Source: Chrysophaeum taylorii
Taxonomy: Eukaryota; Sar; Pelagophyceae; Pelagomonadales; Pelagomonadaceae
Direction of reading: 5' to 3'
Length of the DNA: 64,000 nt
NCBI GenBank assembly: GCA_029834535.1
Contig: JAQMWT010000524.1
Span: forward strand, 496,001 to 560,000
A program made the position numbers and the translations under genes. The notes beneath the pieces are model-generated. The model worked only from the letters and a program-made list of their open reading frames with translations. It did not search any database and was not told where the DNA came from. How positions within the stretch are numbered: the first letter of the stretch is position 1; each line of letters opens with the position of its first letter. This document shows, one piece after another, positions 17,998 through 59,863 of the stretch.

Positions 17998-18311
17998 CAT
18001 TATTATTAGTGGCGACCATCATAGTACCCCATGTAGCGTTTTTTTTTTTTTTCCTCGAAACGTGATGATGATGATGTTCTTTCTGGTTGAGGATTTTTGA
18101 GGTGCAACGGAAGGGGATCTTGATTGGTTGGCGGGAGAAAATTGTATCTCGGGCCGTTAAAGAAGGTGGGTATTCTTTTTGTGTTGAGGTTTGAATAGTT
18201 GTCTCGTATAGTAGTAGTAGTCTCTGCCCGAGCGGAAAGAAGAAAGAAAGAAAAAATCTCGTGGCGTCGTGCCGACAGGTGGTGTGGTGACAGCAGAAGA
18301 AGTTGTTGAGG

Positions 18312-20639
18312 ATGTCGCTGAGTTTCAACGATTCCAAGCTGGGGCTCGCCCTGTTCGAGGCGTTCCCGAGCGTGCGGTTCCTGCACATGAAGTTTAACCC
18401 GAAGGTGACGTTTTTCGCGGCCGCGATAATCTGGGGGTTCATCGCGTTCACGTCTGGTCGGCAGAAGGAGGCGTACAACGAGTTCACGAGCTGGGGCGAC
18501 TGGGTCGGGGACGAGTGGAGTTGGTTCTACATCGGATCGCAGGACATCTGGGTCTTCGTGCTTCTGTACGTGTGCGTATCTAAATACGGTTCGCTCAAGT
18601 TAGGCGGGGACGACGAGGCGCCAGAGTTTAGCCGCGGTTCGTGGTTTGCGATGCTGTTCGCCGCGGGGGTCGGGGTCGGGTTGTTTTATTACGGGGTCGC
18701 CGAGCCGATGTGGCACTACAACGGGTACGGAGGGACGAGGTGGAACGAGATGAACGACAACGACCGCGCGCAACACTCGTTGATGGTTACGTTCTTCCAC
18801 TGGGGCTTCCACGGATGGATTCCGTACACGACGATCGGGGCGCTTTTGGGAATCGTCTCGTTTCGAAAGGGATACCCCTGCACGATCCGGTCCTGCTTCG
18901 TGCCGCTTCTCGGGGAAGACGTGCTGAGGGGAGCGTTGGGAGACGCGATCGACGTCGTTTCTATCTGCTCCACGCTGTTCGGGGTCTGCACGTCGCTGGG
19001 GCTCGGGGTCCAGCAGCTTAATAAGGCGTTAGTGCGGCTGGACAAGGGGACCTACATGGGCATCAACCAGCGCGACGAAGGCCGCCTCGACATCACGTAC
19101 TCGACCAAGTCGCAGATCGCGATCATCTGGGTCGTGACCGCGCTCGCGACGGCGTCGGTGGTTTCTGGGCTCGGCTCCGGCATCAAGTTTTTGTCGAACA
19201 TGACCTTTGTGGTCGGGTGTCTGCTGATGATCTTCGTGCTCTTCGCGGGCGACACGGTCTTTATCCTCAACGCGATCACCTCGGCCTTTGGCTACTATCT
19301 CTGGTACCTGCCCAAGATCTCGTGGCACACGGACGCGTTCGAGATGCTCGACGAGCTCAACCAGGCCGACAACAGCGCTCCTGGGGCTCCGGACGAGCGC
19401 GGCGGCTCGGCCTCCTGGATGGGCGCCTGGACCATCTTCTACTGGGGGTGGTGGATCTCTTGGGCGCCTTTTGTTGGAACGTTTATCGCGAAAATTTCGC
19501 GCGGTCGCACGCTCCGCGAGTTTATCGCCGGTACGCTCATCATCCCGACGATGTACTGCGTCCTGTGGTTTGGGGTGTTTGGGGCCGAGGGTCTGCGCCT
19601 CGACCGCCAGGCCGAGGCCGCGGGCTTGGATTGCGGCGACGGCGGCACCTTCTCGAGCCACGTCTCCACCCGCATGGCCGGCACCTTTTCCGCCGAGCAC
19701 AACCAAGCCTACAAAGTCCGCCTCTGGTGCCTCTCGACCGAAGACATCTTGTTCGACACCCTCTCTACCTACGGCTCGAGGACCATGATGTACGCGACCT
19801 CCACGTTGACCGCCCTCTGCCTCTTGTTCTACTTCGTCACTTCCTCCGATTCTGGGTCTCTCGTGATCGATTCTCTCGCGGCCAACGGCGACGAGGACCC
19901 CCCCATCCTCCAGCGCGTCTTCTGGGCTGTTACCGAGGGCGCCGCCGCGACGGCCCTCCTCTCGACGGGCAAGGAACGCTCTCTCCGCGCCCTCCAGTCG
20001 GTCTCCATCGTCTGCGGCCTCCCCTACACCTTCATCCTGTGCTACATGTGCTACGCGCTCGTTCTCGTCTGCAAGGAAGAAAAAGGCGAACTCTCCCCCA
20101 CCCGCAACCAGTTCCGCGTCCAGCTCCTCAACATCAACGCCTATTTTTTCAAGGATGGCATCGCCGCGGGCGTCGCCACTTTCCTGCTCAACGCGTGCGT
20201 CCCGACGATCGCGATCAAGCGCGTCATGACCAAGACCGCCGCGACCCGAGGCGAGACCTGCCCCCGATTCCCGGTCGTCGCCTCCTTCTGCGTCTTCCTC
20301 GCGGCCATCGTCTTCCTCGCCCTGACTCCCATCGAAGCCAACCTCCGCATGGTCTCTGCCACCTGCTACCTCGCGTTTGCCGTCTTCGTCACTATGGCAC
20401 GCTGGGAGACGCGAGTCTCCGTCAAATGCGAGCGCGGCGACGTCTGCACCGACTACATCGCGGCCTTGATCCTCTACCCGCTCGTCCTCGCCCACTGCGA
20501 AGCCGAGCTCGACTCGGGTCCTATCATCGGCGTCGACGTCAAGGACCTCAAGGAGGTCGAGATGCTCGTCGACAAGACAAAATCCATCCAAGAAGAAAAA
20601 GATAACGCCGCCGCCGCCGCCGCCGCCGAGAAGGCCTAA
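18312..20639 (+). CDS. BCCT-family betaine/choline/carnitine-type osmolyte transporter
   Basis: 775 residues, intronless. The ATG at 18312 was chosen over an in-frame TTG at 18303 because this is a eukaryotic gene. Twelve or so hydrophobic segments are spread over the length. Family landmarks are clear: a glycine-rich TM (GVGVGLFYYGVAEPMWHY, about residues 119-136), the Trp-rich TM (FHWGFHGWIPY, 162-171), the BCCT signature FYWGWWISWAPFVGTFIAKI plus SRGRT (about 375-400), and SSDSGSLVID. In bacterial BetP the matching tryptophans form the cation-pi box that binds trimethylammonium substrates. Uptake of glycine betaine, choline or DMSP for osmotic balance at the plasma membrane is the likely role; the exact substrate is unknown. 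The C-terminus ends in an alanine run encoded by a (GCC)n tract. Confidence 0.92.
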   Translation: MSLSFNDSKLGLALFEAFPSVRFLHMKFNPKVTFFAAAIIWGFIAFTSGRQKEAYNEFTSWGDWVGDEWSWFYIGSQDIWVFVLLYVCVSKYGSLKLGGDDEAPEFSRGSWFAMLFAAGVGVGLFYYGVAEPMWHYNGYGGTRWNEMNDNDRAQHSLMVTFFHWGFHGWIPYTTIGALLGIVSFRKGYPCTIRSCFVPLLGEDVLRGALGDAIDVVSICSTLFGVCTSLGLGVQQLNKALVRLDKGTYMGINQRDEGRLDITYSTKSQIAIIWVVTALATASVVSGLGSGIKFLSNMTFVVGCLLMIFVLFAGDTVFILNAITSAFGYYLWYLPKISWHTDAFEMLDELNQADNSAPGAPDERGGSASWMGAWTIFYWGWWISWAPFVGTFIAKISRGRTLREFIAGTLIIPTMYCVLWFGVFGAEGLRLDRQAEAAGLDCGDGGTFSSHVSTRMAGTFSAEHNQAYKVRLWCLSTEDILFDTLSTYGSRTMMYATSTLTALCLLFYFVTSSDSGSLVIDSLAANGDEDPPILQRVFWAVTEGAAATALLSTGKERSLRALQSVSIVCGLPYTFILCYMCYALVLVCKEEKGELSPTRNQFRVQLLNINAYFFKDGIAAGVATFLLNACVPTIAIKRVMTKTAATRGETCPRFPVVASFCVFLAAIVFLALTPIEANLRMVSATCYLAFAVFVTMARWETRVSVKCERGDVCTDYIAALILYPLVLAHCEAELDSGPIIGVDVKDLKEVEMLVDKTKSIQEEKDNAAAAAAAEKA

Positions 20640-21485: not shown

Positions 21486-23273
21486 TTAAGAAGAAGAAGA
21501 AGAATATTCCCAGTCGCACTCAAAGCCCCAGGTCCAGGTGCCGGGAGCAGCGGGGGCGAGGTGGTGGTAGATGAAAAGCTCGGATTCGGAGAGGCGCTGG
21601 GACCAGACGAGGGTGTCGCGGTGTGAGGTGGCGTTGCGGGAGGTGGAGCAGTCCATGGTGACGCGGACGGGGCGGTCGCCGGCGAGGACGGCGAGGGTGG
21701 CGCCGTTGCCGGCGGCCGCCGCGAGGATGGAGAAGGCCTCGTAGTCGACGCGGTCCGCCACGGCGAGCATGGCGCGGCGCTTGAGGTCGGCGAGATTCAA
21801 GGCGGCGGCGGCGTCGTCGTCGTCGGGCGCGTCCCGGATCTCGAGGCAATCGTCTTTCGAATGGATTTCGACGACGACGTCGGAGGAGGAGTTGGAGGGC
21901 GACCAAATCACGAGGTCGGCGCCGGTAGGCGGGAGGAAGAGGGGTTTGAGGGCCGTCGTGACGCGGCGGTCGCGGGTCGGGAAGACCGCCGCCAGGACGC
22001 GGTCGTCGTCCCAGAGGATAAAGGCGAGGTCTCCAGGTTGTGACGGGTGGTGCAGCGTCGCGCAGACCTCCGCGGGTTTTCCGGCGGTAAGGCGAAGGCG
22101 GCACGCGCGGTTGTCCTCCTCGACGAGGGAGACTGGGCGGCGGAGGACGGCGGGCCAGGGGCCGCACCGACACACGGCGAGGGACGCAAAGTGCGAGTCG
22201 AAGGCGGCCCACGGCATCCAGAACGCGTCGTCTCCGTCGTCTCCGAGCGGGCCCCAAGCGTCGCGGAGACGGACGTTCGAATCGACGACGTCGAGGACCG
22301 CGTAGGCGCGGCCCGGGGCCCGCGGATCGTCCTCGGGAAGTACCGCCGCGACGATCGTGGTTGTTTCCTCCAGCCATAATCTGAGTTGGTCGCAGTTTTT
22401 GACGTTCGTCGCGTCCGCCGGAAACCCTAAAACTGCGAATCCGTCGTCTACGGTGCCGTAATTTTCGATCGCCGCGTACGAGCCGAGGCCCCGCGCGACG
22501 CCGCGCTCTACGACCTGGACCCAGCTCTCCTCGGGGTCCGCGCAGGCCGCGAAGGCGACCGCGTCGCCGAGGCAAGGAAAGGTCGAGTCGTCCAGCGGGC
22601 TCGGGACGCCCGCGATAAATATTTCCTTCCGCGGAAACAACTCGGGCCGCTCGGCGAGCGCGGCCATCGCGCCGACGAGCCACGCGTCCCTTAACACCCC
22701 CTCCCGGATCCCCCGGGGCCGCGGCTCTCCGAAATTTAGGCACTCTCTCCACTCCAACGGGACGCGCCACTCGACGTCGTATCGCAACTCCCAAGGCATA
22801 CCCGTTTGCCCGATATCTGCGATCACGACGCGCCGAAATGGCGGCACGATGCTGTCGTAGGTCCGCTCGACCTCGACGTTCTTTCCGTTCAACTCCAACC
22901 GTATCTCGATCGTCTCTCCCGACAGGTTCTCCGCCTCGAACCGCCACGCGTTCCGCTCCTGCCCTCGGTTCCGGTGCTTCGCGTACACGAACACCCGCGA
23001 CGACACCTCGTCCTTCTCGAGGACCGTCGGGCTCCCTTCGAGCAAGGCGTACGACGTCTCGAGCTCGCCGCGCCACCATTTCAAAAATTGCCTCGAGTCC
23101 AACGGGTCCCCGGCGATTTTTAGAATCGACGCCACCTCGGAGGCCGTGTACTCCCCGCCCATCCCCCGCAGCAGCGCCGACAGCTGCCCGGGCCCCGCGA
23201 CCACACCCTTTTCGGCGAAGGCATCAAAGTACAATCTCACAGCTTGGCTCTCCTCGTCGTCGTCAACCGCCAT
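21486..23273 (-). CDS. Calpain-like protein (family C2) lacking all catalytic residues
   Basis: 595 residues, ATG at 23273, no introns. Residues 8-70 form an EF-hand-like helical region. About 85-170 is a beta-rich domain. The calpain-like protease core runs from about residue 180 to 360: LRDAWLVGAMAALAERPELF aligns with the calpain active-site helix, but the catalytic Cys is Ala197. GRAYAVLDVV has Arg322 where calpains have the catalytic His. RLRDAWG has Asp338 where they have Asn (usually RNPWG). So the fold is kept and the triad is gone. The rest (about 375-595) looks like two beta-sandwich C2-like domains and ends in a serine run from a (TCT)n tract. A regulatory or scaffold role is inferred. 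The gene is divergent from the B-box gene, with only 18 bp between start codons. Confidence 0.8.
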   Translation of the reverse strand: MAVDDDEESQAVRLYFDAFAEKGVVAGPGQLSALLRGMGGEYTASEVASILKIAGDPLDSRQFLKWWRGELETSYALLEGSPTVLEKDEVSSRVFVYAKHRNRGQERNAWRFEAENLSGETIEIRLELNGKNVEVERTYDSIVPPFRRVVIADIGQTGMPWELRYDVEWRVPLEWRECLNFGEPRPRGIREGVLRDAWLVGAMAALAERPELFPRKEIFIAGVPSPLDDSTFPCLGDAVAFAACADPEESWVQVVERGVARGLGSYAAIENYGTVDDGFAVLGFPADATNVKNCDQLRLWLEETTTIVAAVLPEDDPRAPGRAYAVLDVVDSNVRLRDAWGPLGDDGDDAFWMPWAAFDSHFASLAVCRCGPWPAVLRRPVSLVEEDNRACRLRLTAGKPAEVCATLHHPSQPGDLAFILWDDDRVLAAVFPTRDRRVTTALKPLFLPPTGADLVIWSPSNSSSDVVVEIHSKDDCLEIRDAPDDDDAAAALNLADLKRRAMLAVADRVDYEAFSILAAAAGNGATLAVLAGDRPVRVTMDCSTSRNATSHRDTLVWSQRLSESELFIYHHLAPAAPGTWTWGFECDWEYSSSSS

Positions 23274-23291
23274 AATAATACTAATAATAAT
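23274..23291. promoter_or_regulatory. 18-bp AT-only spacer between two divergent start codons
   Basis: The spacer consists only of TAATAATA-type sequence between the calpain-like ATG (minus) and the B-box ATG (plus). Any promoter or 5' leader must overlap the neighbour's leader or coding region. AT-rich TAA/TTA patches also mark other gene borders here (for example 21457-21465 and 24680-24696). Confidence 0.4.
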
Positions 23292-23864
23292 ATGACGTCA
23301 TCTGATTACGATATGATACGCTGTGATTCTTGTTCGAGTCCTTCGGCCACGCTCTGGTGCCCCGACCAACGCAGGCCATACTGCGTCCTCTGCTGGGACC
23401 GCAAACCCGGCCACGTCCCCCACCGACTCAAGCTCAGACGCGACGACGACGACGACGACGACGATATTACGACGGCGGCGGGGGCGGTACGACCAAATCT
23501 TTCCGCACCACCGACGACGACGAGGACTTCTCGAAAACAAACAACGGCCAAGACGACGAAGACTAGATTAAAGAAAGGCCGCCTCGCCTCCTCGAGCAGC
23601 AAATGCGGACGCGAGGAAACGGCGGCGGCGGTGTGCCTCGAGCCCAGCGCCACGGGATTGATCGGATCGGCCAACCGACGAAAACAACGTTCTCTTGTCC
23701 TCTCTCCCGTCTCGGTGCGCCCCCCTCTTGCTCCTCCTCCTCCTCCGTTCAGGCGGCTCGCGGGCTTCGGCGTGGAACCTTCCCACAAACCCCCGGAATT
23801 TTCCGTCGCCGCCTCGAACTACGCGACGATTCTCGAGCTCGAGGCCGTCTCCCCCCTACCTTAA
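23292..23864 (+). CDS. B-box zinc finger protein
   Basis: 190 residues from the ATG at 23292; an upstream in-frame TTG would lie inside the divergent gene. Residues about 10-50 fit a B-box: IRCDSCSSPSATLWCPDQRR, then PYCVLCWDRKPGHVPH (C-x2-C-x7-C-x2-D-x4-C-x2-C-x4-H-x2-H). An aspartate run follows, encoded by a GAC tract, then a long basic, Ser/Thr/Pro-rich tail with no fold visible. B-boxes mediate protein-protein contacts in TRIM-type ligases and plant transcription regulators; the tail here lacks RING or CCT motifs, so the partner is unknown. Its TAA stop is 3 bp from the stop of the convergent gene downstream. Confidence 0.65.
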   Translation: MTSSDYDMIRCDSCSSPSATLWCPDQRRPYCVLCWDRKPGHVPHRLKLRRDDDDDDDDITTAAGAVRPNLSAPPTTTRTSRKQTTAKTTKTRLKKGRLASSSSKCGREETAAAVCLEPSATGLIGSANRRKQRSLVLSPVSVRPPLAPPPPPFRRLAGFGVEPSHKPPEFSVAASNYATILELEAVSPLP

Positions 23865-48121: not shown

Positions 48122-51100
48122 CTACGAAAAGTCGAGGAGTGCAGACGAATGTTGGAGGCCCGTCTCTGTTGGCGGTTTCCAGTTGGTTTGGAGGTCGGCA
48201 TCTCCGAGAACGTTGATGTTGACGGGATCGCAGTCATCGGGATCGGCGTCCGGAATAAAGGCCGCGGCGAGATTGGCAGACATGGTGCCCCTGATATCCT
48301 TCTCGTCGGGTTCCTTCTCCTTGCCGACCGTGTTGGCGTGCGTCCCCATCTCCTCCCCGGCCTGCGTGACGGCCTGCTTCTTCATCTTGTAAAAGGCCTT
48401 GGCCCTCTCGCACTCGAGCACCCGCTCGAGGTTGCTGATCGCACTCTTGTGACTGAGCGACATCTGCTCGACGGTCGTCGCGTGCTTTTGCTTGAGGCTC
48501 TTGCTCGCCTTCTCCTGACGCTCGATTAGCTGCGGCAGTTGCGTCCGCAACGCAAACTCCTGGACCCGCTTCGTCCACGCGATGCTCTCGCGCTTGTCGA
48601 TGAGGTCGGCCTTCTCCTCGAACTCCATCGCCTCCGAGGCGCGCCGGTTCTTCCGGAGTTTGCGCGCCGCGTTCCGGTAGCGCACGACGAGCGGGTTCTG
48701 CTTCCGGAGCTTGTAGCTCGCCGTCTTGTTGTGGTGGCACACGTACCGGTGCTTGCAGTTGCACTTGGTCGCCGAGATGTCGTTGCACGTCGCCGTCCGG
48801 ATCGTCCGCTCGACGAAAGCGTCGCGCTCCTTGCGGTGCATCTCGGCGAGGTGCTCCTCGCGCTCGTTCTGGCGCTCGCGTACCTGGTTGATCTGCTCGC
48901 CGAGCTCCTCCCGGAACTGGTCCATCCGCCGCTCGTGCTGTGCCTGCAGCATGCGCATGCGCCGCTCGATGTTCTCCTTCTGCCGAATCTCGATCTCCTG
49001 CTGCTTGCGCGCCTGCGTCGCCGCGATGCGCTCGTCGAGCGCGTACACGTGCTCGACGAACCCGAGCCGCTGCATCAGCAGGCGCTCGTTCTTCAGCGAC
49101 TTGAGATCCATCGTCTCCGAACGCATCGAGGACCTCGTTCCGATCGTCTCCGAGTCGTTCCGCTGCATCCCCGTCTCCTGAACGATCGAACGATACGCCG
49201 TAAGCTCGTCGTCGATCATTTCCTCGAGAACCCGTTGCATCTTGGCCGCCATCTTTCCCGAGACCAACTGCTGCCCGAGCTCGTTCGCCCCGTACTCCTC
49301 CATCATCTCCAACACCCTCGGCGACGTCTGCATCTCTTCGCCGTGATGCCCGATCGACGCCGACTTTGGCCGTTTCTTGCGACCCGACGAAAAACGTTGC
49401 TGCTGCTCGAACGGCATCGAATCCAGGTTATCGACCGCGCCCTGGTTCACGCGCGGCGACGCCGTCTGCGGTCGCTGCGGCGCCTTTTGAAACTGCTGCT
49501 GCTGCTCCACGGGCTGGGGTTTTATGTCCCACACGTGAACCGGTCCCGCGCGCTCCGCCGTACCCGGATTACTCTCGGCGCCCTTCATCACGAACGTCCC
49601 GTCGACCCCGATCGTCCCCATGCCCTTGAGGTCCGCAAAGGTCATCATACCCTTTCCCGCGCCATCGTAGTCCTCGTCCTCGTCCTCCTCGTCCTCCTCG
49701 GGCCGCTCGTCCGAGTCGTACCCGTCTTGCCACGCCGCCGACGTCAGCCGCGCCTCCCTCGGGGGGTACGCACCCCCCTTGGATCCTCTCGACTCCGCGG
49801 GCCGTCGCGGCGAAAAATCGTCGTCCGACATCCCGTCGAGATCGCGCGACCCCATCTCGTCCTCCTCGCTCCCCTCTTGTTCCTCAGAATCCACGTCAGC
49901 TTGCTGCTCCTCGAAAATTTCTTTTTTCGCCGGCACCGGAGCGAACGACACGCCCTTCTTCTTCGGCGAAACGTTATTCCGAGCCGGCTCCGACGGCTTC
50001 ACCGGCAAAAGGGGCTTGCTTGGCGGCGCCGACGTTGGACGCCGCGGGAGCTTCGCGGACTCCTCCTCGGACCCCGCTTCGGACTCCTCGTCCTTCGACG
50101 CCTGCCTCCGAGGCGCCCGTTTGCGAGGAGGCGCGGACGTCGGTCGCTGCTGTGGCTGCCGCCGCTTCGGTGGTGTTTCATCTTCTTCATCCGACGACGA
50201 AGACGACGACGACGAGTCGTCCGACGACGGCGCCAGCGCCGGGGCCGGCTTGGTCGCCGCCGCGCGCTCCTCCTCGTCGTCCGACGACGGCTTCGGCGGC
50301 CGTCTTCTCGGCGGTGCCGGCGCCAGCGCCGGGGCCGGCTTGGTCGCCGCCGCGCGCTCCTCCTCCTCGTCGTCCGACGACGGCTTCGGCGGCCGTCTTC
50401 TCGGCGGTGCCGGCGCCAGCGCCGGGGCCGGCTTGGTCGCCGCCGCGCGCTCCTCCTCCTCCTCGTCCTCCTCCTCGTCGTCGTCTTCAACTCGTGGCTT
50501 ATTCTTCGTCGGGTGCGATTTACTCTTCGGCGGTGATGCTTTTCGTCGAGGAGTCTCGTCTTCCTCGTCTTCCTCCTCGACTTGCTTATTCTTTCTATTG
50601 GACGACGATTGCTGCTGCCTCGGGGACGCGTCCGCGTCAACCTCGGGCTCGGGCGGGTCTTCCAGATCAATCTGGCTCGCGTCGACCTCCGGCGCCACGT
50701 TTGCCGGTCTCGATGAGGATGCCTTCTTCTGGGATTGAGGCAGAATCGAACACTCGCGGCGCACGCCGACTTTCTTGCCAGGCTTGGGGGGCTCGACAAT
50801 AATTTTGTGCGCGGTTACGCCAATCGCGTGCCAAGGAACCACGTTCGTCGCCGTCGCCGTCGTCTTCGGCTGAAGGAACACCCGCCCCAGCGTCGCGAGA
50901 GCACGAAGACTCGCAAAATGCGCCTCGGAGTCGATCGCGTAGTCGCTCACATTCATCTGCATGCCAATTTGATAGCGATATTCGTCGTTGGTGTCGTATA
51001 TCGGACTGAGGGTAAACATGCACTCGAACTGATTCCCGTCCATTTTGTAGTTTATCAGTCGAATGACGAGAGGCTCGCCGTGGCGTAGCGAGTCGACAAT

Positions 51101-54100
51101 CTCGTCGTTCAAGTATGGTTCGGTGTCCTTACCCTGTAAGAAGCTGCATTTCTTCCCGATTTGCTCCTGGCCGTAGCCAGTCGCGTAACGAAAGCCGGGG
51201 TCGTTGATGTGCACGAGAGGAATACCAGGCACCCGCATGTCGGACACGACAATACCGACGTCCTTCTGTTGCTGGCTCATGATTCGAACCATGTCAAGAT
51301 AGAAATCGTCGCTCCGCTCGTTGAGGCCACGTGCGCATGTGGCGAGGCGAGGCACTTTGGACGACTTGCCAGCGACTTCGCGGTCACGAAGCGCGTATAC
51401 AAGCTCTGCCCCGTAGGCCGAGTCCAGCAGCGGGACGAGACAACCATGAGCAAATACCTTGATTATGTTTCGATGCCACGTCTCGATGAGATCCGAGAGG
51501 CCGGCGAAATCCTGCTCGTCCAGCTCGCCCACGATGATCTCGATCGTCGAGTAGTAGCAAATCATGTTCTGATACATGGGAAGGATCGCCTTTCGAATCA
51601 AAGGCTTGCGCTTCGACTTGGACTTGGACACGATGCCGGATGTAATCTCGAAAAAGGTCAGCGCCTGCTTCGCAACCGGCGAGGCCGACGCCTTGACCCA
51701 CTTGGAAAATATCGCCATCGACTCCTTGTCCTCGACCAGTGCTGCCATCGTCTCCTCTGCACGCGAAAGCCACATAGTCTTCGTGAAAGCAAAGATAGAC
51801 CGAGAATACGCCCCGCTACCTCCGCCACTTGATCCACCCTGCTCGTCGTCCTCCTCCTCCTCCTCCTCACGCCTGCCCTTCTTGCTACCTTTCTTGACCA
51901 GCGCGTCGTTCGCGCTGAAGTCGGTCCGCGCGGCTTTGGCACCCTTCTCGCGCGCCTTGTCGTTACTCTTGAAAGGAAGCTTGCGCGGGAGCATCTTGAG
52001 TAGCTTGTCGAGCTGCGCGAGGCGGGGGGGCAGGTTCTCGTCGTCGATGACCTCGAACTGGACACCGATAACGTAGCGGTAGATGCCGTCGGCGTCGAAG
52101 ACCGGTCGCATCGACAACAGATTCTTGAACTTGGTGCCGGTCTTCTTGTAATTGGTCAGGAGAACGTGGCAGTCCTCGCCCTTGGACAACGTTCGCTGAA
52201 TGACGCCAATCGACTCGGGCTCGGTGTCTGGCCCTTGGAGGAAGCGGCAGTTCCGCCCGCATGCCTCCTCGCGCTCGTACTCGGTCACTCGCGAGAATTC
52301 GGGGTTGACGTAGACCATCGGTGCGCCTGGGATGGTCATGTCGGAGACGACGATGCATGCCGGCCAGGTATCTGCTATTTGGATAAAGGCGCTCAGCCAC
52401 TCGTCGGCGTCCTGCGGCAGACACGAGCCAGCTTTTTGAAGCGCCTTGTCGAGGTTGGACGAGCTGCCGCCGCCGCCGCCACCCGTCACCTTACTAAGTT
52501 TTTTGGCGAAGTCGCTCTGGAGGAACCGCGGGAAAGTCTCGACGGCGAGCATCTTGAAGGTATCTCTCGACTCCTTCTGGAGGGTGGCGAAGGGATTCTT
52601 AGTCTTGCGAGAAGCTTTGCCCCCCGACGACTTCCAGAGCTTGTCCGTAGCCGCGGTGCGATCTTGTTGGCCGATACCCTTGGAGCCACCCTTGCCCGAT
52701 GTGCTCGTTCCGAGGAAGTCGTTCATCAGTTGTTGTGCCTGCTGGTCTCGATCCGCGCTCTTGCCTGCCTTCTCGAGCTCCTTCGCCTTGATGTAGAAGT
52801 CGAGCGATGCCCGATTGTACTCGGTATCGAGGAAGTCGCCGAAGGCGCTGCGGCCCTCCTCTCGCTCGAGGATCATGGACAAGGAGCCCTCGACGTCGAC
52901 GAGCCAGGCGTTTGTGGTGAGCTCGTGCAGCGCGTCCTTGTGCTTCTTGCCGAGACGCTTGCCGTAGGGGGTCTTGTTGGCACCGTGTCCCGTCTCGACG
53001 ACCGGACCGGAATCCGCGTCGGGCTCGGGCTCTCGCGAGGCGATGGGTTTGGCCTTTTTTCTAGATTTCGCAGGTTTCGCCGTCGGGTTCGCAGGGTCGA
53101 CCTCCAAAGAGGCATCACCCAGCGCGCTCACCGGCATGACGCGGTGTTCGTCTTCCTTCGTCGAACACAGGATGCTTGTGGGCAGCAACCGAAGTAGCTC
53201 CTCCAGATCCGCAAGTAGACGGCAGACCTTTGCTTCTTCGAGGTCCATGTTGATTTGAGCACCAAGCATGAAGACGTACTCGCCCTCGGGCCCGAAGATT
53301 GGCTGCAGGACAAGGTAGCACTGAAAGGCGTCGCCATTGCGTTTATAGTTGATGAGTTTCACGACCAACGGCTTGGCCTCTCGAAGAGCCTCGACAATCT
53401 CGTCAACTAGGTAGCTTGGCGTGTCGGGACCTTGCAGGAAACTGCACTTCTTGCCGATTTGCTCTTGGCCGTAGCCAGTGACGGCCTTGAAACCATTCTC
53501 GTTTATAAAACACAACGGGATGCCTGGTACTCGCATGTCTGACATGACGATACCGATATCGTCGTAGGACCAAAGAGCATTAGCAAAAAGATTCATCCAG
53601 TATTTGTCACTGCTGGATGGCTCGACGCCAAAGGCGACGGTGTGTGCTCCAACGTGCTCGGTACCGTCGGTGACAGTTTCGAGTTTGCGCACGCAGTCGA
53701 CAAGATTCGGCCCGGTCGTCGAGTGCAACAGGCGCGGCAAAAGATCCGTGGCCAGCAGTCGTACTGAAACCTCGCGTCTCTCAACAATGTCGGCCAGAAT
53801 CGGTCCAAAATCAGCCTCGGGCAACGTGCCAATCTCTATCGTCGGAAAGTTCGTGCAGTACCACATGGGGTTATGTTCCATGCGTCTGATCAAGCGCTTG
53901 AGCATCGACTTCAACTTCGTCTTTGGAGTGTTCATAACAGCCGTAGCTTCGATGGCGAACTGCAAGTGTGTTCGAGTGAGTGGCGAGCAGGTTGCGGCTG
54001 CAAAATCCTCGAGGATCTTCGACGTCTTCTGGCGCTGCAAGAGCCCGTCTATGGCCTTCTCGGGCTCGCGCAGCCAGGCGATCCGCGTGAGCGCGAAAGT

Positions 54101-57100
54101 AGTCTTAGTCCAGTCTCGCGGAATATCCTCGTCCGACGTTGCTTTTTTGATCTCCTCGTCCGTCAGCGTGGCATTGGCTTCACCGTCCACGCGAGCGGCT
54201 CGGAGACCACGCGTACGGGCTTCTGGCGCACTCTTTAACGGTAGCTGCCTCGGCAAAAGCTGCAGGAGCTTGTTGAGCTGAGCGAGGCGTGACGGATCGT
54301 CGCTCTCGTCGATCTCGAACTGGACTCCAATGGTGTACCGGTAGAGGCCGTCGCCGTCGAACACCGGACGCATCGAGAGCAGGTTTTTGAATGTATCGCC
54401 ATTCTTCTTGTAGTTCGTCAGCAGAACGTGGCAATCCTCACCTTTCGCCAAGGTTTGCTGGATCACTGCGATCGACTCGGGCTCCGTCTCGGGGCCTTGG
54501 AGGAATCGGCAGTTGCGGCCAACGGCCTCGTCGCGTTCGTACTCCGTCACTTTGCAAAACTCAGGGTTGACGTAGACCATCGGCGCGCCTGGGATAGTCA
54601 TGTCGGAGACGACGATGCAGGCCGGCCACGTTTCGGCCATCTGCATGAAGTTGGCAAGCCACTGGTCGGCGTCCTGTGGCGCCATCGAGCCGGCTTTCTC
54701 GAGCGCTGCTGCGAGCTTGGCCCCGCCACTCGAGGATCCGCTGCCCTTCATGGCCTTGAGCGCCTTTTTGCAGAGTTCCGTCTTGACGAAGCGAGGGAAT
54801 GCATTGAGTGCGAGGCCTTTGAGCGTCGATTCAGCCTCGCGCTGGACCGCATCGCGGACCTTCTTAGTGTTGAGCTGCTTGGGCTTTTTCTTCTTGGCTG
54901 TTTGATACAGTTTTTGCGTCGCCTTGGTGCGCTGCTGCTGGCCAATGCCGTCGCCGACGCTCGCAACGTAAGTCCCATACAGCGACATGTAATGTTCCTC
55001 CGCCTTTTGTTCGTCGAGTTGCTTGGCTTCGAGGAACGCCACGTAGAACTGGAGCTCGGCGTCGCCTTGTTCCATTTTCAGGAAGTACTCAAAGGCCTTG
55101 CGGAAAGGCCCGGCCGTGTCGAGGAGCCTGCGAAGCGAGGTAACGCCGTCGGCGAGCCACATCTGGGACGTGAGATCTTGTTGCTCTACAACAGCCATGG
55201 CCTGCGCGTTCTTCTTGGATTTGACCACTTCTCTCTTCTTGTTGGTGATTTGTAGTCGGAGAGACGGGTTCTGCGACGTTGCTGGTTGCTTGGCCTCGGC
55301 GGCCACGGCGTCAAGGCTCTTCGATTTTCCGCGCTTTGATTCCGCACTCGACTCCTGAGGTGCAACGTACTTGGGCCACTTCTTTGGAGGGGTCTTCTTG
55401 ACAGGTTTGGGTTCGACAATCAGGTTGTACGCCGATTCGGTGAGTAGCCTCGAAACCCGGGCTTTTCCAAACTGACCAGACGTGTGGGCAGGCATGAAAA
55501 CGCGACCAGCATCGGCGAGCGCCTTGAGGCTGATCAAGTGCTTGTCTGACATTGGTGCCTCCGCCGTCTCGTCCATTTGCAAGCCAATTTGATACCGGTA
55601 CTCGTCGTGCTGGTCGAATATCGGACTGAGTGTGAAGACGCATTGAAAGAGAGTGCCGTTCTTCTTGTAGTTGGTGATCTTGATCACAAGCGGCTCGGCG
55701 TGACGCAAAGAGTCAACAATCTCGTCGATAAGATAACCCTCGGTGCCGTCACCTTGTAGGAAGCTGCACTTCTTGCCGATTTGTTCCTGGCCGTAGCCGG
55801 TCGCATACAGGAAGCCAGGGTCGTTGACATGCACCAGAGGAATCCCGGGCACGCGCATATCGGAAACTACGAGACCGATGTGCTTGAGCTTAGCGCTCAT
55901 CACACGAACCATGTCGAGGTAGAAGTCGTCGCTATCTTTGAGACCGCGCGCACAGGTCGCCAGCCGGAGCTTCTTCGTCTTACCAGCCACTTCTCGCGAC
56001 CGCAGTGCATAGACGAGCTCAGCACCCTGGACCGAGTTCATGAACGGGAGGAGACAAGAGTGAGCCATGATGTTGATCCACTTCTTGCTCCAGAGCTCGA
56101 TGTTGTCGATGAGTTCGGTGAAGTCCTGTTCGTCGATTTCGCCGACAACGATCTCGATGGTCGTGCAGTAGCAAATCATATTTTGGTACATCTTCATGAT
56201 GGCCTTGCGAGCGATGGGCTTACGCTTCGACTTACCCTTCGACAGAATACTCGTTGATTGGTCTAAGAAATCGAGAGCACCCCGAGCGACGTGCGATCCC
56301 GACGCCTTCACCCACTTGGTGAAGATCGACATCGAGTCCTTGTCTTCGACTATCGCCGCCATGGTGTCCTCCGGGGTCGTAAGCCAGCTTAACCGAGTTA
56401 TGGCGAACATGGACGCGGCACACGCAGTGTTCGTGCCAGAGCCCGACGACTCGTGTCCCTCGTCTTCTTCCTCGACATCGTCGTCGCTTGCCTTCTTCTT
56501 CACCGTTTTTCCATTTTTGACCAGCGCATCGTTCGCGCTAAAGTCGGTCCGCGCAGCTTTGGCACCCTTCTCGCGCGCCTTGTCGTTACTCTTGAAAGGA
56601 AGCTTGCGCGGGAGCATCTTGAGTAGCTTGTCGAGCTGCGCGAGGCGGGGAGGCAGGTTCTCGTCGTCGATGACCTCGAACTGGACACCGATGACGTAGC
56701 GGTAGATGCCGTCGGCGTCGAAGACAGGTCGCATCGACAACAGATTCTTGAACTTGGTGCCGGTCTTCTTGTAATTGGTCAAGAGAACGTGGCAGTCCTC
56801 GCCCTTGGACAACGTTCGCTGAATGACGCCAATCGACTCGGGCTCGGTGTCTGGCCCTTGGAGGAAGCGGCAGTTCCGCCCGCATGCCTCCTCGCGCTCG
56901 TACTCGGTCACTCGCGAGAATTCGGGGTTGACGTAGACCATCGGTGCGCCTGGGATGGTCATGTCGGAGACGACGATGCATGCCGGCCAGGTATCTGCTA
57001 TTTGGATAAAGGCGCTCAGCCACTCGTCGGCGTCCTGCGGCAGACACGAGCCAGCTTTTTGAAGCGCCTTGTCGAGGTTGGACGAGCTGCCGCCGCCGCC

Positions 57101-59863
57101 GCCACCCGTCACCTTACTAAGTTTTTTGGCGAAGTCGCTCTGGAGGAACCGCGGGAAAGTCTCGACGGCGAGCATCTTGAAGGTATCTCTCGACTCCTTC
57201 TGGAGGGTGGCGAAGGGATTCTTAGTCTTGCGAGAAGCTTTGCCCCCCGACGACTTCCAGAGCTTGTCCGTAGCCGCGGTGCGATCTTGTTGGCCGATAC
57301 CCTTGGAGCCACCCTTGCCCGATGTGCTCGTTCCGAGGAAGTCGTTCATCAGTTGCTGTGCCTGCTGGTCTCGATCCGCGCTCTTGCCTGCCTTCTCGAG
57401 CTCCTTCGCCTTGATGTAGAAGTCGAGCGATGCCCGATTGTACTCGGTATCGAGGAAGTCGCCGAAGGCGCTGCGGCCCTCCTCTCGCTCGAGGATCATG
57501 GACAAGGAGCCCTCGACGTCGACGAGCCAGGCGTTTGTGGTGAGCTCGTGCAGCGCGTCCTTGTGCTTCTTGCCGAGGCGCTTGCCGTAGGGGGTCTTGT
57601 TGGCGCCGTGTCCCGTCTCGACGACCGGACCGGAATCCGCGTCGGGCTCGGGCTCTCGCGAGGCGACGGCCTTGGCCTTTTTGTTCGATCTCGCAGGCTT
57701 TGCCGTGGGGTTAGCCGGGTTGACTTCGGAGGCCAGGTCACCAGTGAGGCTGGTTGGCATGATGCGTTTCTCGTCGTCGTCGCCCGAGCAGAGAACAGTC
57801 GACGGCAGGAGTTGCAGGAGCTGTTCCAGTGCAGCCATTTGGCGACACACTTTCGTCGGATTAACATCCATGTTGATCTGTGCTCCGACCTGGTACAAGT
57901 AGTCGCCATCCGCGCCAAATATTGGGTGCATGGCGAAGTAGCACTGGAATGGATCCCCGTTCCTCTTGTAATTAAAGAGCTTGACGACGATCGGCTTGGC
58001 CTCGCGTAAGGCCTCGACGATTTCGTCGATCAAGTAACTCGGCGTCTCTGGTCCTTGCAGGAAGGTACACTTCTTGCCAACTTGTTCCTGGCCGTAGCCC
58101 GTAACAGCCATGAAGCCCTTTTCGTTTATCCACGTCAACGGGATGCCGGGAACGCGCATGTCCGAGATGACCAAGCCGATGTCGTCGTAAGACGCCGTGG
58201 CGTTGGCAAACATGTGCAGCCAGAATTTGTCGCTCGTCGTCGTTTCAACGCCAAAGGCGACTGTGTGAGCCCCCACGTCCTCCGTTCCGTTCGTCGCCTG
58301 CTCGAGCTTGCGCACGCATTCGACCAGCGTAGGTCCGGAGGTCGACTGCAGGAGACGCGGCAGCAGATCGGCCGCGAGTAGCCTGATAGATGCTTGGCGA
58401 CGTTCCGCGACTTCGACGGCCACGGGGTCCCAGTCGGTGCGATCGAGGTGGCCGATGACGATTTCCGTCGAGGTGCAGTAGAACATGGGGTTGTGTTCCA
58501 TGCGTTTGTGCAAGGTGCGAAGGAGGTTGTCCCGCTTTGAACCGGTGGACTGCATAACGGCCGTGGCCTCGATGGCGAACTGCAGGTGCGTTTGGGCGAA
58601 GGGCGAGCAAGCGGCGGCGGCGTACTCCTCGAGGATCTTCGACGTCTTCTGGCGCAATAGAAGACCATCCACGGCCTTCTCGGGTTCTCGCAACCAGGCG
58701 ATCCGCGTCAACGCGAAGATGCACTTAGACCAGTCGTGCTCCGGCTCGGCCTCGACCTCCTCGTCCGCTTCGGTGGCGGTGGTGTCCTCCGTCGCCGCCG
58801 CAGGGGTGGCCTCGCCGTCCACGCGCGCCGCGCGCATACCGCGCTGTCGAGCCTTTGCCGCGCTACGCAAGGGGAGCTTTCTGGGCAGGAGCTGCAGGAG
58901 CTTGTTGAGTTGGGCGAGGCGCGACGGGTCATCGCTTTCGTCGATCTCAAACTGGACGCCTATAGTGTACCGATAGAGGCCGTCGCCATCGAATACAGGG
59001 CGCATCGAGAGCAAGTTTTTGAAGGTATCACCGCTCTTCTTGTAATTTGTCAGCAGCACGTGACAATCCTCCCCTTTGGCCAATGTTTGTTGAATGACCG
59101 CGATCGATTCGGGCTCCGTCTCGGGGCCTTGGAGGAAGCGGCAGTTGCGGCCGACAGCCTCGTCGCGCTCGTACTCAGTCACTCTACAAAACTCGGGGTT
59201 AACGTAGACCATTGGCGCGCCGGGAATGGTCATGTCGGAGACGACGATGCAGGCCGGCCACGTCTCGGCCATCTGCATGAAACTGGCTAGCCACTGGTCC
59301 GCGTCCTGCGGTGCCATCGAGCCGGCCTTCTCTAGTGCAGCGGCCAGCTTCGCACCACCGCCCGCAGATCCACCGCTGCCCTTGATCGCCGCGAGCGCCT
59401 TCTTGCAGAGGTCGCTCTTCACAAAACGCGGGAAGGCATTAAGCGCAAGGCCTTTGAGTGTCGCCTCGGCCTCTCTCTGGACCGCCTCGCGCACCTTCTT
59501 CTCGTTGAGTTGCTTTGGGCGCTTCTTCTTGGCTGTCGTGTAAAGCTTCTGCGTCGCCTTGGTGCGCTGTTGCTGGCCAATCCCGTCGCCGACGCTCGCA
59601 ACATAGGTCTCGTAGAGCTCCGTCAAGCGTTCCTCGTCGTCTTTGGCGTCGAGGGCTGCGACGTAGAAAGCGAGTTCGGCGTCGCCTTGTTCCATCTTGA
59701 GGAAATTTCCGAAGGCATCGCGAAACGGACCCTTGGTGTCGAGGAGCCGGCGAAGCGAGGTGACCCCGTCGGCGAGCCACATCTGCGACGTGAGATCCTG
59801 CTGCTCGGCCATCTCCGCCGCGGCGGCGATCTTTTTTGACTTTGTTACTTTTGGTGGTGCCAT
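48122..59863 (-). CDS. Giant octa RGS-LOV blue-light receptor with coiled-coil tail
   Basis: One ORF of 3913 residues, ATG at 59863, TAG at 48122. It carries eight modules, each an RGS or RGS-like helical domain and then a LOV (PAS-type flavin) domain, as two sets of four. LOV cysteines fall near residues 241, 599, 998, 1366, 1785, 2140, 2539 and 2906. Domains 1, 3, 5, 7 have the classic GRNCRFLQ motif and NYKK...FKNLL; domains 2, 4, 6, 8 read GKKC(S/T)FLQ. The Gln of the last strand (IGVQ, VGAQ) is kept. RGS 1 shows both ends of the fold (SLRRLLDTKGPFRDAF and NAFPRFVKSDL). Residues about 3040-3400 are acidic and repetitive; about 3500-3800 are coiled coil with a CNCKHRYVC patch. RGS domains act on G-alpha and LOV domains sense blue light, so light-gated G-protein or membrane signalling is inferred. 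Confidence 0.93.
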   Translation of the reverse strand: MAPPKVTKSKKIAAAAEMAEQQDLTSQMWLADGVTSLRRLLDTKGPFRDAFGNFLKMEQGDAELAFYVAALDAKDDEERLTELYETYVASVGDGIGQQQRTKATQKLYTTAKKKRPKQLNEKKVREAVQREAEATLKGLALNAFPRFVKSDLCKKALAAIKGSGGSAGGGAKLAAALEKAGSMAPQDADQWLASFMQMAETWPACIVVSDMTIPGAPMVYVNPEFCRVTEYERDEAVGRNCRFLQGPETEPESIAVIQQTLAKGEDCHVLLTNYKKSGDTFKNLLSMRPVFDGDGLYRYTIGVQFEIDESDDPSRLAQLNKLLQLLPRKLPLRSAAKARQRGMRAARVDGEATPAAATEDTTATEADEEVEAEPEHDWSKCIFALTRIAWLREPEKAVDGLLLRQKTSKILEEYAAAACSPFAQTHLQFAIEATAVMQSTGSKRDNLLRTLHKRMEHNPMFYCTSTEIVIGHLDRTDWDPVAVEVAERRQASIRLLAADLLPRLLQSTSGPTLVECVRKLEQATNGTEDVGAHTVAFGVETTTSDKFWLHMFANATASYDDIGLVISDMRVPGIPLTWINEKGFMAVTGYGQEQVGKKCTFLQGPETPSYLIDEIVEALREAKPIVVKLFNYKRNGDPFQCYFAMHPIFGADGDYLYQVGAQINMDVNPTKVCRQMAALEQLLQLLPSTVLCSGDDDEKRIMPTSLTGDLASEVNPANPTAKPARSNKKAKAVASREPEPDADSGPVVETGHGANKTPYGKRLGKKHKDALHELTTNAWLVDVEGSLSMILEREEGRSAFGDFLDTEYNRASLDFYIKAKELEKAGKSADRDQQAQQLMNDFLGTSTSGKGGSKGIGQQDRTAATDKLWKSSGGKASRKTKNPFATLQKESRDTFKMLAVETFPRFLQSDFAKKLSKVTGGGGGGSSSNLDKALQKAGSCLPQDADEWLSAFIQIADTWPACIVVSDMTIPGAPMVYVNPEFSRVTEYEREEACGRNCRFLQGPDTEPESIGVIQRTLSKGEDCHVLLTNYKKTGTKFKNLLSMRPVFDADGIYRYVIGVQFEVIDDENLPPRLAQLDKLLKMLPRKLPFKSNDKAREKGAKAARTDFSANDALVKNGKTVKKKASDDDVEEEDEGHESSGSGTNTACAASMFAITRLSWLTTPEDTMAAIVEDKDSMSIFTKWVKASGSHVARGALDFLDQSTSILSKGKSKRKPIARKAIMKMYQNMICYCTTIEIVVGEIDEQDFTELIDNIELWSKKWINIMAHSCLLPFMNSVQGAELVYALRSREVAGKTKKLRLATCARGLKDSDDFYLDMVRVMSAKLKHIGLVVSDMRVPGIPLVHVNDPGFLYATGYGQEQIGKKCSFLQGDGTEGYLIDEIVDSLRHAEPLVIKITNYKKNGTLFQCVFTLSPIFDQHDEYRYQIGLQMDETAEAPMSDKHLISLKALADAGRVFMPAHTSGQFGKARVSRLLTESAYNLIVEPKPVKKTPPKKWPKYVAPQESSAESKRGKSKSLDAVAAEAKQPATSQNPSLRLQITNKKREVVKSKKNAQAMAVVEQQDLTSQMWLADGVTSLRRLLDTAGPFRKAFEYFLKMEQGDAELQFYVAFLEAKQLDEQKAEEHYMSLYGTYVASVGDGIGQQQRTKATQKLYQTAKKKKPKQLNTKKVRDAVQREAESTLKGLALNAFPRFVKTELCKKALKAMKGSGSSSGGAKLAAALEKAGSMAPQDADQWLANFMQMAETWPACIVVSDMTIPGAPMVYVNPEFCKVTEYERDEAVGRNCRFLQGPETEPESIAVIQQTLAKGEDCHVLLTNYKKNGDTFKNLLSMRPVFDGDGLYRYTIGVQFEIDESDDPSRLAQLNKLLQLLPRQLPLKSAPEARTRGLRAARVDGEANATLTDEEIKKATSDEDIPRDWTKTTFALTRIAWLREPEKAIDGLLQRQKTSKILEDFAAATCSPLTRTHLQFAIEATAVMNTPKTKLKSMLKRLIRRMEHNPMWYCTNFPTIEIGTLPEADFGPILADIVERREVSVRLLATDLLPRLLHSTTGPNLVDCVRKLETVTDGTEHVGAHTVAFGVEPSSSDKYWMNLFANALWSYDDIGIVMSDMRVPGIPLCFINENGFKAVTGYGQEQIGKKCSFLQGPDTPSYLVDEIVEALREAKPLVVKLINYKRNGDAFQCYLVLQPIFGPEGEYVFMLGAQINMDLEEAKVCRLLADLEELLRLLPTSILCSTKEDEHRVMPVSALGDASLEVDPANPTAKPAKSRKKAKPIASREPEPDADSGPVVETGHGANKTPYGKRLGKKHKDALHELTTNAWLVDVEGSLSMILEREEGRSAFGDFLDTEYNRASLDFYIKAKELEKAGKSADRDQQAQQLMNDFLGTSTSGKGGSKGIGQQDRTAATDKLWKSSGGKASRKTKNPFATLQKESRDTFKMLAVETFPRFLQSDFAKKLSKVTGGGGGGSSSNLDKALQKAGSCLPQDADEWLSAFIQIADTWPACIVVSDMTIPGAPMVYVNPEFSRVTEYEREEACGRNCRFLQGPDTEPESIGVIQRTLSKGEDCHVLLTNYKKTGTKFKNLLSMRPVFDADGIYRYVIGVQFEVIDDENLPPRLAQLDKLLKMLPRKLPFKSNDKAREKGAKAARTDFSANDALVKKGSKKGRREEEEEEDDEQGGSSGGGSGAYSRSIFAFTKTMWLSRAEETMAALVEDKESMAIFSKWVKASASPVAKQALTFFEITSGIVSKSKSKRKPLIRKAILPMYQNMICYYSTIEIIVGELDEQDFAGLSDLIETWHRNIIKVFAHGCLVPLLDSAYGAELVYALRDREVAGKSSKVPRLATCARGLNERSDDFYLDMVRIMSQQQKDVGIVVSDMRVPGIPLVHINDPGFRYATGYGQEQIGKKCSFLQGKDTEPYLNDEIVDSLRHGEPLVIRLINYKMDGNQFECMFTLSPIYDTNDEYRYQIGMQMNVSDYAIDSEAHFASLRALATLGRVFLQPKTTATATNVVPWHAIGVTAHKIIVEPPKPGKKVGVRRECSILPQSQKKASSSRPANVAPEVDASQIDLEDPPEPEVDADASPRQQQSSSNRKNKQVEEEDEEDETPRRKASPPKSKSHPTKNKPRVEDDDEEEDEEEEERAAATKPAPALAPAPPRRRPPKPSSDDEEEERAAATKPAPALAPAPPRRRPPKPSSDDEEERAAATKPAPALAPSSDDSSSSSSSSDEEDETPPKRRQPQQRPTSAPPRKRAPRRQASKDEESEAGSEEESAKLPRRPTSAPPSKPLLPVKPSEPARNNVSPKKKGVSFAPVPAKKEIFEEQQADVDSEEQEGSEEDEMGSRDLDGMSDDDFSPRRPAESRGSKGGAYPPREARLTSAAWQDGYDSDERPEEDEEDEDEDYDGAGKGMMTFADLKGMGTIGVDGTFVMKGAESNPGTAERAGPVHVWDIKPQPVEQQQQFQKAPQRPQTASPRVNQGAVDNLDSMPFEQQQRFSSGRKKRPKSASIGHHGEEMQTSPRVLEMMEEYGANELGQQLVSGKMAAKMQRVLEEMIDDELTAYRSIVQETGMQRNDSETIGTRSSMRSETMDLKSLKNERLLMQRLGFVEHVYALDERIAATQARKQQEIEIRQKENIERRMRMLQAQHERRMDQFREELGEQINQVRERQNEREEHLAEMHRKERDAFVERTIRTATCNDISATKCNCKHRYVCHHNKTASYKLRKQNPLVVRYRNAARKLRKNRRASEAMEFEEKADLIDKRESIAWTKRVQEFALRTQLPQLIERQEKASKSLKQKHATTVEQMSLSHKSAISNLERVLECERAKAFYKMKKQAVTQAGEEMGTHANTVGKEKEPDEKDIRGTMSANLAAAFIPDADPDDCDPVNINVLGDADLQTNWKPPTETGLQHSSALLDFS
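50229..50459 (-). repeat. Coding minisatellite in the giant LOV gene
   Basis: GGCGCCAGCGCCGGGGCCGG recurs at 50229, 50319 and 50412, giving units of 90 and 93 bp. They encode acidic-proline repeats (EERAAATKPAPALAPAPPRR, then RPPKPSSDDE). The length differences are whole codons, so the frame is kept. Confidence 0.8.
51893..53038 (-). repeat. Near-identical module copy 2 (RGS7-LOV7)
   Basis: Matches 56516-57661 at a constant offset of 4623 bp. The encoded residues (about 2276-2657) are the same as 735-1116 over roughly 380 residues. Only scattered silent changes were seen, for example near 52735, 52960 and 52983. The flanking modules of the two sets differ much more. Confidence 0.85.
56516..57661 (-). 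repeat. Near-identical module copy 1 (RGS3-LOV3)
   Basis: Partner of 51893-53038. The borders of the match lie in the linker before RGS3 (REPEPDADSG) and in the linker after LOV3 (DFSANDALVK), which suggests a recent duplication or gene-conversion tract inside the gene. Confidence 0.85.

Follow-up and report, generated by a model that had tools for sequence, protein, structure and literature searches.

The window considered here, a stretch of 64,000 nucleotides from contig C524 of an assembly of 70.8 Mb in 697 contigs, contains a gene that I read, with a probability of about 0.72, as encoding, in an ochrophyte alga, a doubled receptor of the helmchrome type in which the unit RGS-LOV-RGS'-LOV' occurs four times and which works by the light-driven mechanism proposed below. 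As far as sequence can show, this gene for a receptor of eight RGS-type and eight LOV-type modules is real and unusual. I will refer to modules by their order from the amino terminus, to modules 1-4 as set A and modules 5-8 as set B, and to the first and second pair of each repeat as odd and even, respectively. The coordinates of all features are collected in Table 1.

Table 1. Features of the eight-module gene, in the order of the protein. Positions are those of the window.
Feature	Position	Strand	Basis
Whole frame (8 RGS-type and 8 LOV-type modules, linker, tail)	48122..59863	-	Frame, Pfam, Cys motif
RGS1 (canonical, odd)	59348..59800	-	Pfam; odd profile against solved RGS domains
LOV1 (canonical, GRNCRFLQG; checked flavin contacts kept)	58934..59281	-	Structure matches, pocket comparison
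RGS2 (divergent, even)	58229..58735	-	No Pfam RGS match; homologous to odd RGS by profile
LOV2 (variant, GKKCTFLQG; Asn to Lys, Arg to Thr, last Asn to Cys)	57854..58207	-	Structure matches, pocket comparison
Nearly identical tract, copy A (around module 3; ends approximate)	56564..57664	-	Codon comparison
RGS3 (canonical)	57074..57550	-	Pfam
LOV3 (canonical)	56660..57010	-	Cys motif, pocket comparison
RGS4 (divergent)	55928..56422	-	Profile comparison
LOV4 (variant, GKKCSFLQG)	55544..55906	-	Cys motif, pocket comparison
Junction of set A and set B	55184..55543	-	Searched stretch 55064-55546: full-length genome match here only
RGS5 (canonical)	54716..55180	-	Pfam, profile
LOV5 (canonical)	54302..54649	-	Pfam, Cys motif, pocket comparison
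RGS6 (divergent)	53594..54115	-	Profile comparison
LOV6 (variant, GKKCSFLQG)	53231..53584	-	Cys motif, pocket comparison
Nearly identical tract, copy B (around module 7; ends approximate)	51941..53044	-	Codon comparison
RGS7 (canonical; amino acids identical to RGS3)	52451..52927	-	Pfam, codon comparison
LOV7 (canonical; amino acids identical to LOV3)	52037..52387	-	Pocket and codon comparison
RGS8 (divergent)	51299..51808	-	Profile comparison
LOV8 (variant, GKKCSFLQG)	50924..51286	-	Cys motif, pocket comparison
Low-complexity linker	49544..50776	-	Composition
Tail rich in E/K/R/Q, with C-x-C-x5-C-x-H-N motif, common to four-module paralogue	48125..49543	-	Composition, paralogue comparison

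The Reading Frame

The frame lies on the minus strand (the initial annotation had given no strand), encodes 3913 amino acids from its ATG (I estimate about 430 kDa for a single chain), and is the longest of the 34 frames of at least 300 amino acids in the window. That it is single and open, as claimed earlier, is borne out by the absence of any stop in the 3923 codons from stop to stop. The locus might instead give rise to several shorter proteins, through internal starts or splicing, and two relatives in the same genome, on contigs C484 and C5, do look as if they were split by introns, their matches falling into several pieces. This I give only a slim chance, in view of the uninterrupted frame and of the GC content by codon position, which in seven sampled stretches covering amino acids 1-3500, the linkers between modules included, is like that of coding sequence (0.71-0.78 at third positions and 0.38-0.52 at second positions).

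Elsewhere in the window, other frames (18291-20639 and 21486-23297) match a BCCT betaine/carnitine/choline transporter (E 2.1e-147) and, in part only, calpain (E 4e-10).

Two Kinds of LOV Modules

The earlier count of eight LOV domains, made from the sequence alone, was recovered by an HMM search, in which the Pfam model PAS_9 matched eight stretches of the frame (whole-protein E 2.5e-91). When the stretches were scored singly, in a search of the genome, seven of them exceeded the curated cut-off of 27 bits, and the eighth (26.7 bits) passes only together with its neighbors. The reactive cysteine is present in all eight, within the motif G-x-[N/K]-C-x-F-L-Q-G, starting at amino acids 238, 596, 995, 1363, 1782, 2137, 2536, and 2903. 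Among LOV proteins of solved structure, LOV1 is closest to a histidine kinase (9vf7, E 1.1e-27), with aureochrome and phototropin next, and the best match of LOV2 is EL222 (8a5r, E 2.1e-20).

The pockets fall into two classes. The residues compared (Asn, Cys, Arg, and Gln) are those with roles in flavin binding, and the reference was the core of oat LOV2. By this comparison, all four odd LOVs combine the motif GxNCRFLQ, with its Asn-Cys-Arg, with the further flavin-contacting Asn, Asn, and Gln, a combination found in none of the four even LOVs. Each of the latter keeps the Cys, one Asn, and the Gln, and in each the first Asn is replaced by Lys, the Arg by Thr or Ser, and the last Asn by Cys. 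Since the even LOVs have lost two Asn and one Arg, the standard photoswitches are probably the four odd LOVs and not all eight.

The initial annotation had treated the eight LOVs as equivalent, a view that is not supported, given the loss, in all four even LOVs, of two flavin-contacting Asn and of the Arg beside the Cys, and the divergence of the even RGS domains. I reject eight equal photoswitches on the strength of these changed pocket residues and of the divergence of the domain pairs.

One may imagine that all eight LOVs nonetheless bind flavin, in two photochemical classes (the four standard switches and four Lys/Ser(Thr)/Cys pockets with altered lifetime or chromophore), and that the array counts blue light with eight sensors working at two speeds, binding sites for G-alpha being released from it stepwise. 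I regard this as a rather unlikely elaboration.

Canonical and Divergent RGS Modules

Only half of the eight RGS domains claimed earlier are recognizable by themselves. The Pfam RGS model matches four stretches of the frame, the odd domains, all above the cut-off, and when the four even regions were scanned singly against Pfam (E<=5), none gave an RGS match. The other half of the claim is supported by homology, since the profiles of even and odd domains, each of seven rows (the even with paralogues), align by hhalign over 129 columns with a probability of 92.8 and a score of 47.7. The highest score among 100 column-shuffled controls was 19.1, and the alignment in reverse scored 14.2. The odd profile, made for this search from six of the seven odd rows (RGS7 omitted), finds 34 distinct sequences in PDB at E<=0.001, the best being RGS16 (E 1.7e-10). 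The even profile finds no RGS domain in PDB at E<=10, its single match being a ribosomal protein (E 1). Because the even and odd profiles match one another so far above the shuffled controls and the odd profile matches RGS16, I conclude from these comparisons that four RGS domains of the protein are canonical and that the other four, RGS-type but divergent, are of common descent with them.

The GAP activity of RGS domains depends critically on a Glu and on an E-N pair. Aligned to RGS16, the odd domains keep the Glu after FL and lack the E-N pair before LEFW, and their GAP activity is for this reason uncertain.

Doubling of the Array

Sets A and B are 77% identical in protein over 1501 aligned codons, in agreement with the two sets of four described earlier. 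In six of the eight A/B domain pairs dS is about 0.8-2.5, values that are near saturation and rough (with the NG86 method of Biopython, LOV4/8 comes out at 2.39 and LOV2/6 has no value). The two exceptions, RGS3/7 (0.01) and LOV3/7 (0.04), owe their low values to a tract of near identity, about 1.1 kb long, in which 7 of some 369 codons differ. This pattern is most simply read as the outcome of a tandem doubling, long ago, of a gene with four modules, followed by gene conversion. Within the nearly identical tract itself an assembly error is conceivable as well; the number of modules is the same either way. A very recent duplication is contradicted by the dS of 0.8-2.5.

Near identity of DNA over 1.1 kb, such as that of modules 3 and 7, can confuse assembly, and so it might be supposed that a four-module gene was counted twice through a false join. 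But the halves are not one sequence read twice, because outside the tract they differ by the dS just given and overall they have only 77% of residues in common. Moreover, no stop interrupts the frame at the junction, and the genome contains a single full-length match to the stretch that spans it (the one further match falls at the start of set A and covers 123 of 483 bases at 82%). The chance of such an artefact is therefore very slight.

Outside the tract, the most conserved pair is LOV1/5 (dN 0.007, dS 0.79); values for other pairs are 0.138 and 0.9 for RGS1/5, 0.173 and 2.52 for LOV2/6, and 0.299 and 1.55 for RGS4/8. In all six pairs dN is far below dS, from which the array is judged to be under purifying selection. 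The ratio dN/dS within set A, about 0.085 for LOV1/3 and about 0.22 for LOV2/4 (LOV6/8 is without a finite dS), points the same way as the lower dN of the odd LOVs. Gene conversion could explain a part of that low dN, since the dS values of LOV1/5 and RGS1/5 (0.79 and 0.9) are below those of the even pairs (1.55-2.52).

These values bear also on the supposition that the gene is real but its LOVs are mostly insensitive to light, the protein serving as a scaffold in which PAS domains dimerize and RGS-like domains hold partners. Such a scaffold would suit the lost Asn, Arg, and Asn contacts of all four even LOVs, and the Cys itself is lost from two LOVs of paralogues, C484 LOV2 (GQEFGFLNG) and C166 LOV1 (GGNLGVLQG, read in translation), which represent a natural series of probably dead LOVs. 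It fits poorly with the retention of the Cys in eight of eight LOVs here, with the intact checked contacts of the odd LOVs, and with the dN of 0.007 in LOV1/5, and I consider it quite improbable.

In a tree of LOV domains, LOV1 pairs with LOV5 (96/89) and LOV2 with LOV6 (96/93); LOV4 and LOV8 are not placed, the even LOVs group together only weakly (76/81), and half of the inner branches (9 of 18) are open. The fact that canonical LOVs still alternate with altered ones after the doubling suggests that the two have separate jobs.

Relatives in the Same Genome

PAS_9 finds 33 matches in the genome. The paralogue on C594 has a frame of 2172 amino acids with four LOVs and two stretches matched by Pfam RGS, and its tail shows 43% identity with that of the eight-module gene. 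Its LOV2 has the K-K-C pattern of the even LOVs, and its LOV4 keeps the Arg and the last Asn. Further RGS-LOV relatives lie on C484, C5, C493, and C166, those on C5 and C493 having tails related to that of the eight-module gene. The RGS-LOV genes of this genome form a natural series, with eight, four, and fewer modules, and this makes it possible to test how the number of modules relates to light sensitivity and whether action is through G-alpha or through membranes.

Two other loci encode single LOVs. At L016:4666-6231 a canonical LOV stands behind repeats that look by eye to be of the ankyrin type, a frame in which Pfam (E<=0.01) recognizes PAS models only. At L014:5254-6597 a C-terminal LOV follows a basic leucine-rich stretch that has no Pfam bZIP match, perhaps a divergent aureochrome. 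In viral contigs, 600 stretches fit the peptide patterns used and none was confirmed by tblastn, a weak test, with six patterns of which five are different.

Linker, Tail, and Basic Stretches

The linker and tail described in the initial annotation as disordered and coiled-coil are both present and of the expected composition. In the linker, hydrophobic residues make up 2-3% of three stretches of 60 amino acids, consistent with disorder. In the tail, E/K/R/Q reach 62% in one stretch of 60 amino acids, consistent with a coiled coil; searches with the tail against Pfam (E<=5) and against solved structures (E<=1) gave no match. The motif C-x-C-x5-C-x-H-N is found in the tails of the eight-module gene and of its relatives on C594 and C493, and is absent from that of C5. 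The motif may bind metal, though this is guesswork.

Inside the linker is a tandem repeat of 93 bp (50228-50468, 2.6 copies, 97% matches), whose copy number may vary among strains.

Each of the four odd LOVs is followed by a basic stretch with a net charge of +6 to +9 per 30 amino acids. The idea that these act as polybasic linkers is weak and offered as a lead only, because stretches of +3 to +6 occur within 70 amino acids of the even LOVs and because the corresponding stretches after LOVs 1-4 of C594 are uneven (+6, -3, +2, and +6).

Comparison with Known Systems

I judge the closest known kind to be the helmchromes, which combine several LOV and RGS domains, and the eight-module gene to be most likely a doubled variant of the helmchrome type rather than a new kind of receptor. 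The likeness consists in the union of RGS and LOV domains in one chain, as found here, and in a photosynthetic stramenopile as the source, which the bZIP-LOV proteins, light-harvesting genes, and rbcL of this genome indicate. Helmchrome is an RGS-LOV protein of stramenopile flagella, in brown algae of the posterior one, and probably a receptor by which swimming algal cells orient to light; the comparison made here is with a four-module gene with a related tail in the same genome, from which the present gene differs in having eight modules. The available part of PMC10967245 classes helmchromes, which are stramenopile proteins, among the RGS-LOV proteins; the initial annotation did not name this family. 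The comparison should not stop at single-module RGS-LOV proteins, given the multi-module paralogues of the same genome. The database name of the brown-algal helmchrome CBJ26132.1 mentions a histidine kinase, whereas Pfam finds no kinase in the eight-module protein. The name may reflect LOV similarity only, since NCBIfam models of LOV kinases match the eight-module protein through its LOVs.

Phototropins have more than one LOV domain per chain, and they resemble the present protein in this and in the canonical LOV pocket. They differ in that it has no kinase (Pfam) and that its LOVs alternate with RGS domains. Aureochromes are likewise LOV proteins of stramenopiles, and three bZIP-LOV genes are present in this genome, but each has one bZIP and one LOV; in the LOV tree they form a starred group of their own, on a long branch, beside LOV1 of C594 (92/85). 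BcLOV4, the RGS-LOV protein of the fungus Botrytis cinerea, shares the adjacency of RGS to LOV and the basic stretch after the LOV. It has an N-terminal RGS and a LOV, according to the available part of PMC8993538, in contrast to the alternation of two kinds of module, eight of each kind, and the different tail found here. The same part of that paper describes a polybasic linker beside the LOV, unmasked by light and speculated to bind lipid or membrane.

The literature searched, which lacks most subscription journals, yielded no paper on a receptor with eight LOVs, and among its papers on multiple or tandem LOVs none concerns RGS-LOV proteins by title. The term RGS is absent from the available part of a 2025 review of algal photoreceptors (PMC12558739).

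Proposed Mechanism

In the doubled helmchrome-type receptor, blue light would produce a cysteinyl-flavin adduct in the odd LOVs, and the adduct, by loosening the neighboring RGS domains and basic helices, would allow the array to bind G-alpha, the membrane, or both. The even LOV'-RGS' pairs would be mainly structural or tuning partners. The tail would assemble or fix the protein, probably in the flagellum, and the receptor may in this way help to steer swimming. The effect of the doubling would be more light sensors and more G-alpha sites per molecule. The RGS and LOV modules might also find use as parts for optogenetics.

The available part of PMC2781859 provides the physiological setting. 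The hind cilium of phototactic heterokonts, which steers, often has a flavin-like fluorescence, and a flavoprotein, Old Yellow Enzyme, had earlier been purified from it. The hind flagellum is thought there to carry the flavin receptor on which phototaxis in the brown lineage depends, and the mode of signalling is called open.

The Host Genome

Matches to G-alpha in the genome are two of full length and one split over several pieces; G-alpha proteins are encoded on C244 and C350. There are 22 matches to dynein heavy chains, several of which are fragments of the same gene. The host probably makes flagella, though not all dynein heavy chains are flagellar. The genome encodes three bZIP-LOV proteins of the aureochrome type, has 84 light-harvesting matches, and carries rbcL on C697, and because of these three features I take the host to be an ochrophyte alga, a photosynthetic stramenopile, though they do not point to a class; aureochromes are not known outside photosynthetic stramenopiles. 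On four contigs (C88, C539, C390, and C533) the light-harvesting matches are clustered, with equal or nearly equal scores within each contig, as if recently duplicated.
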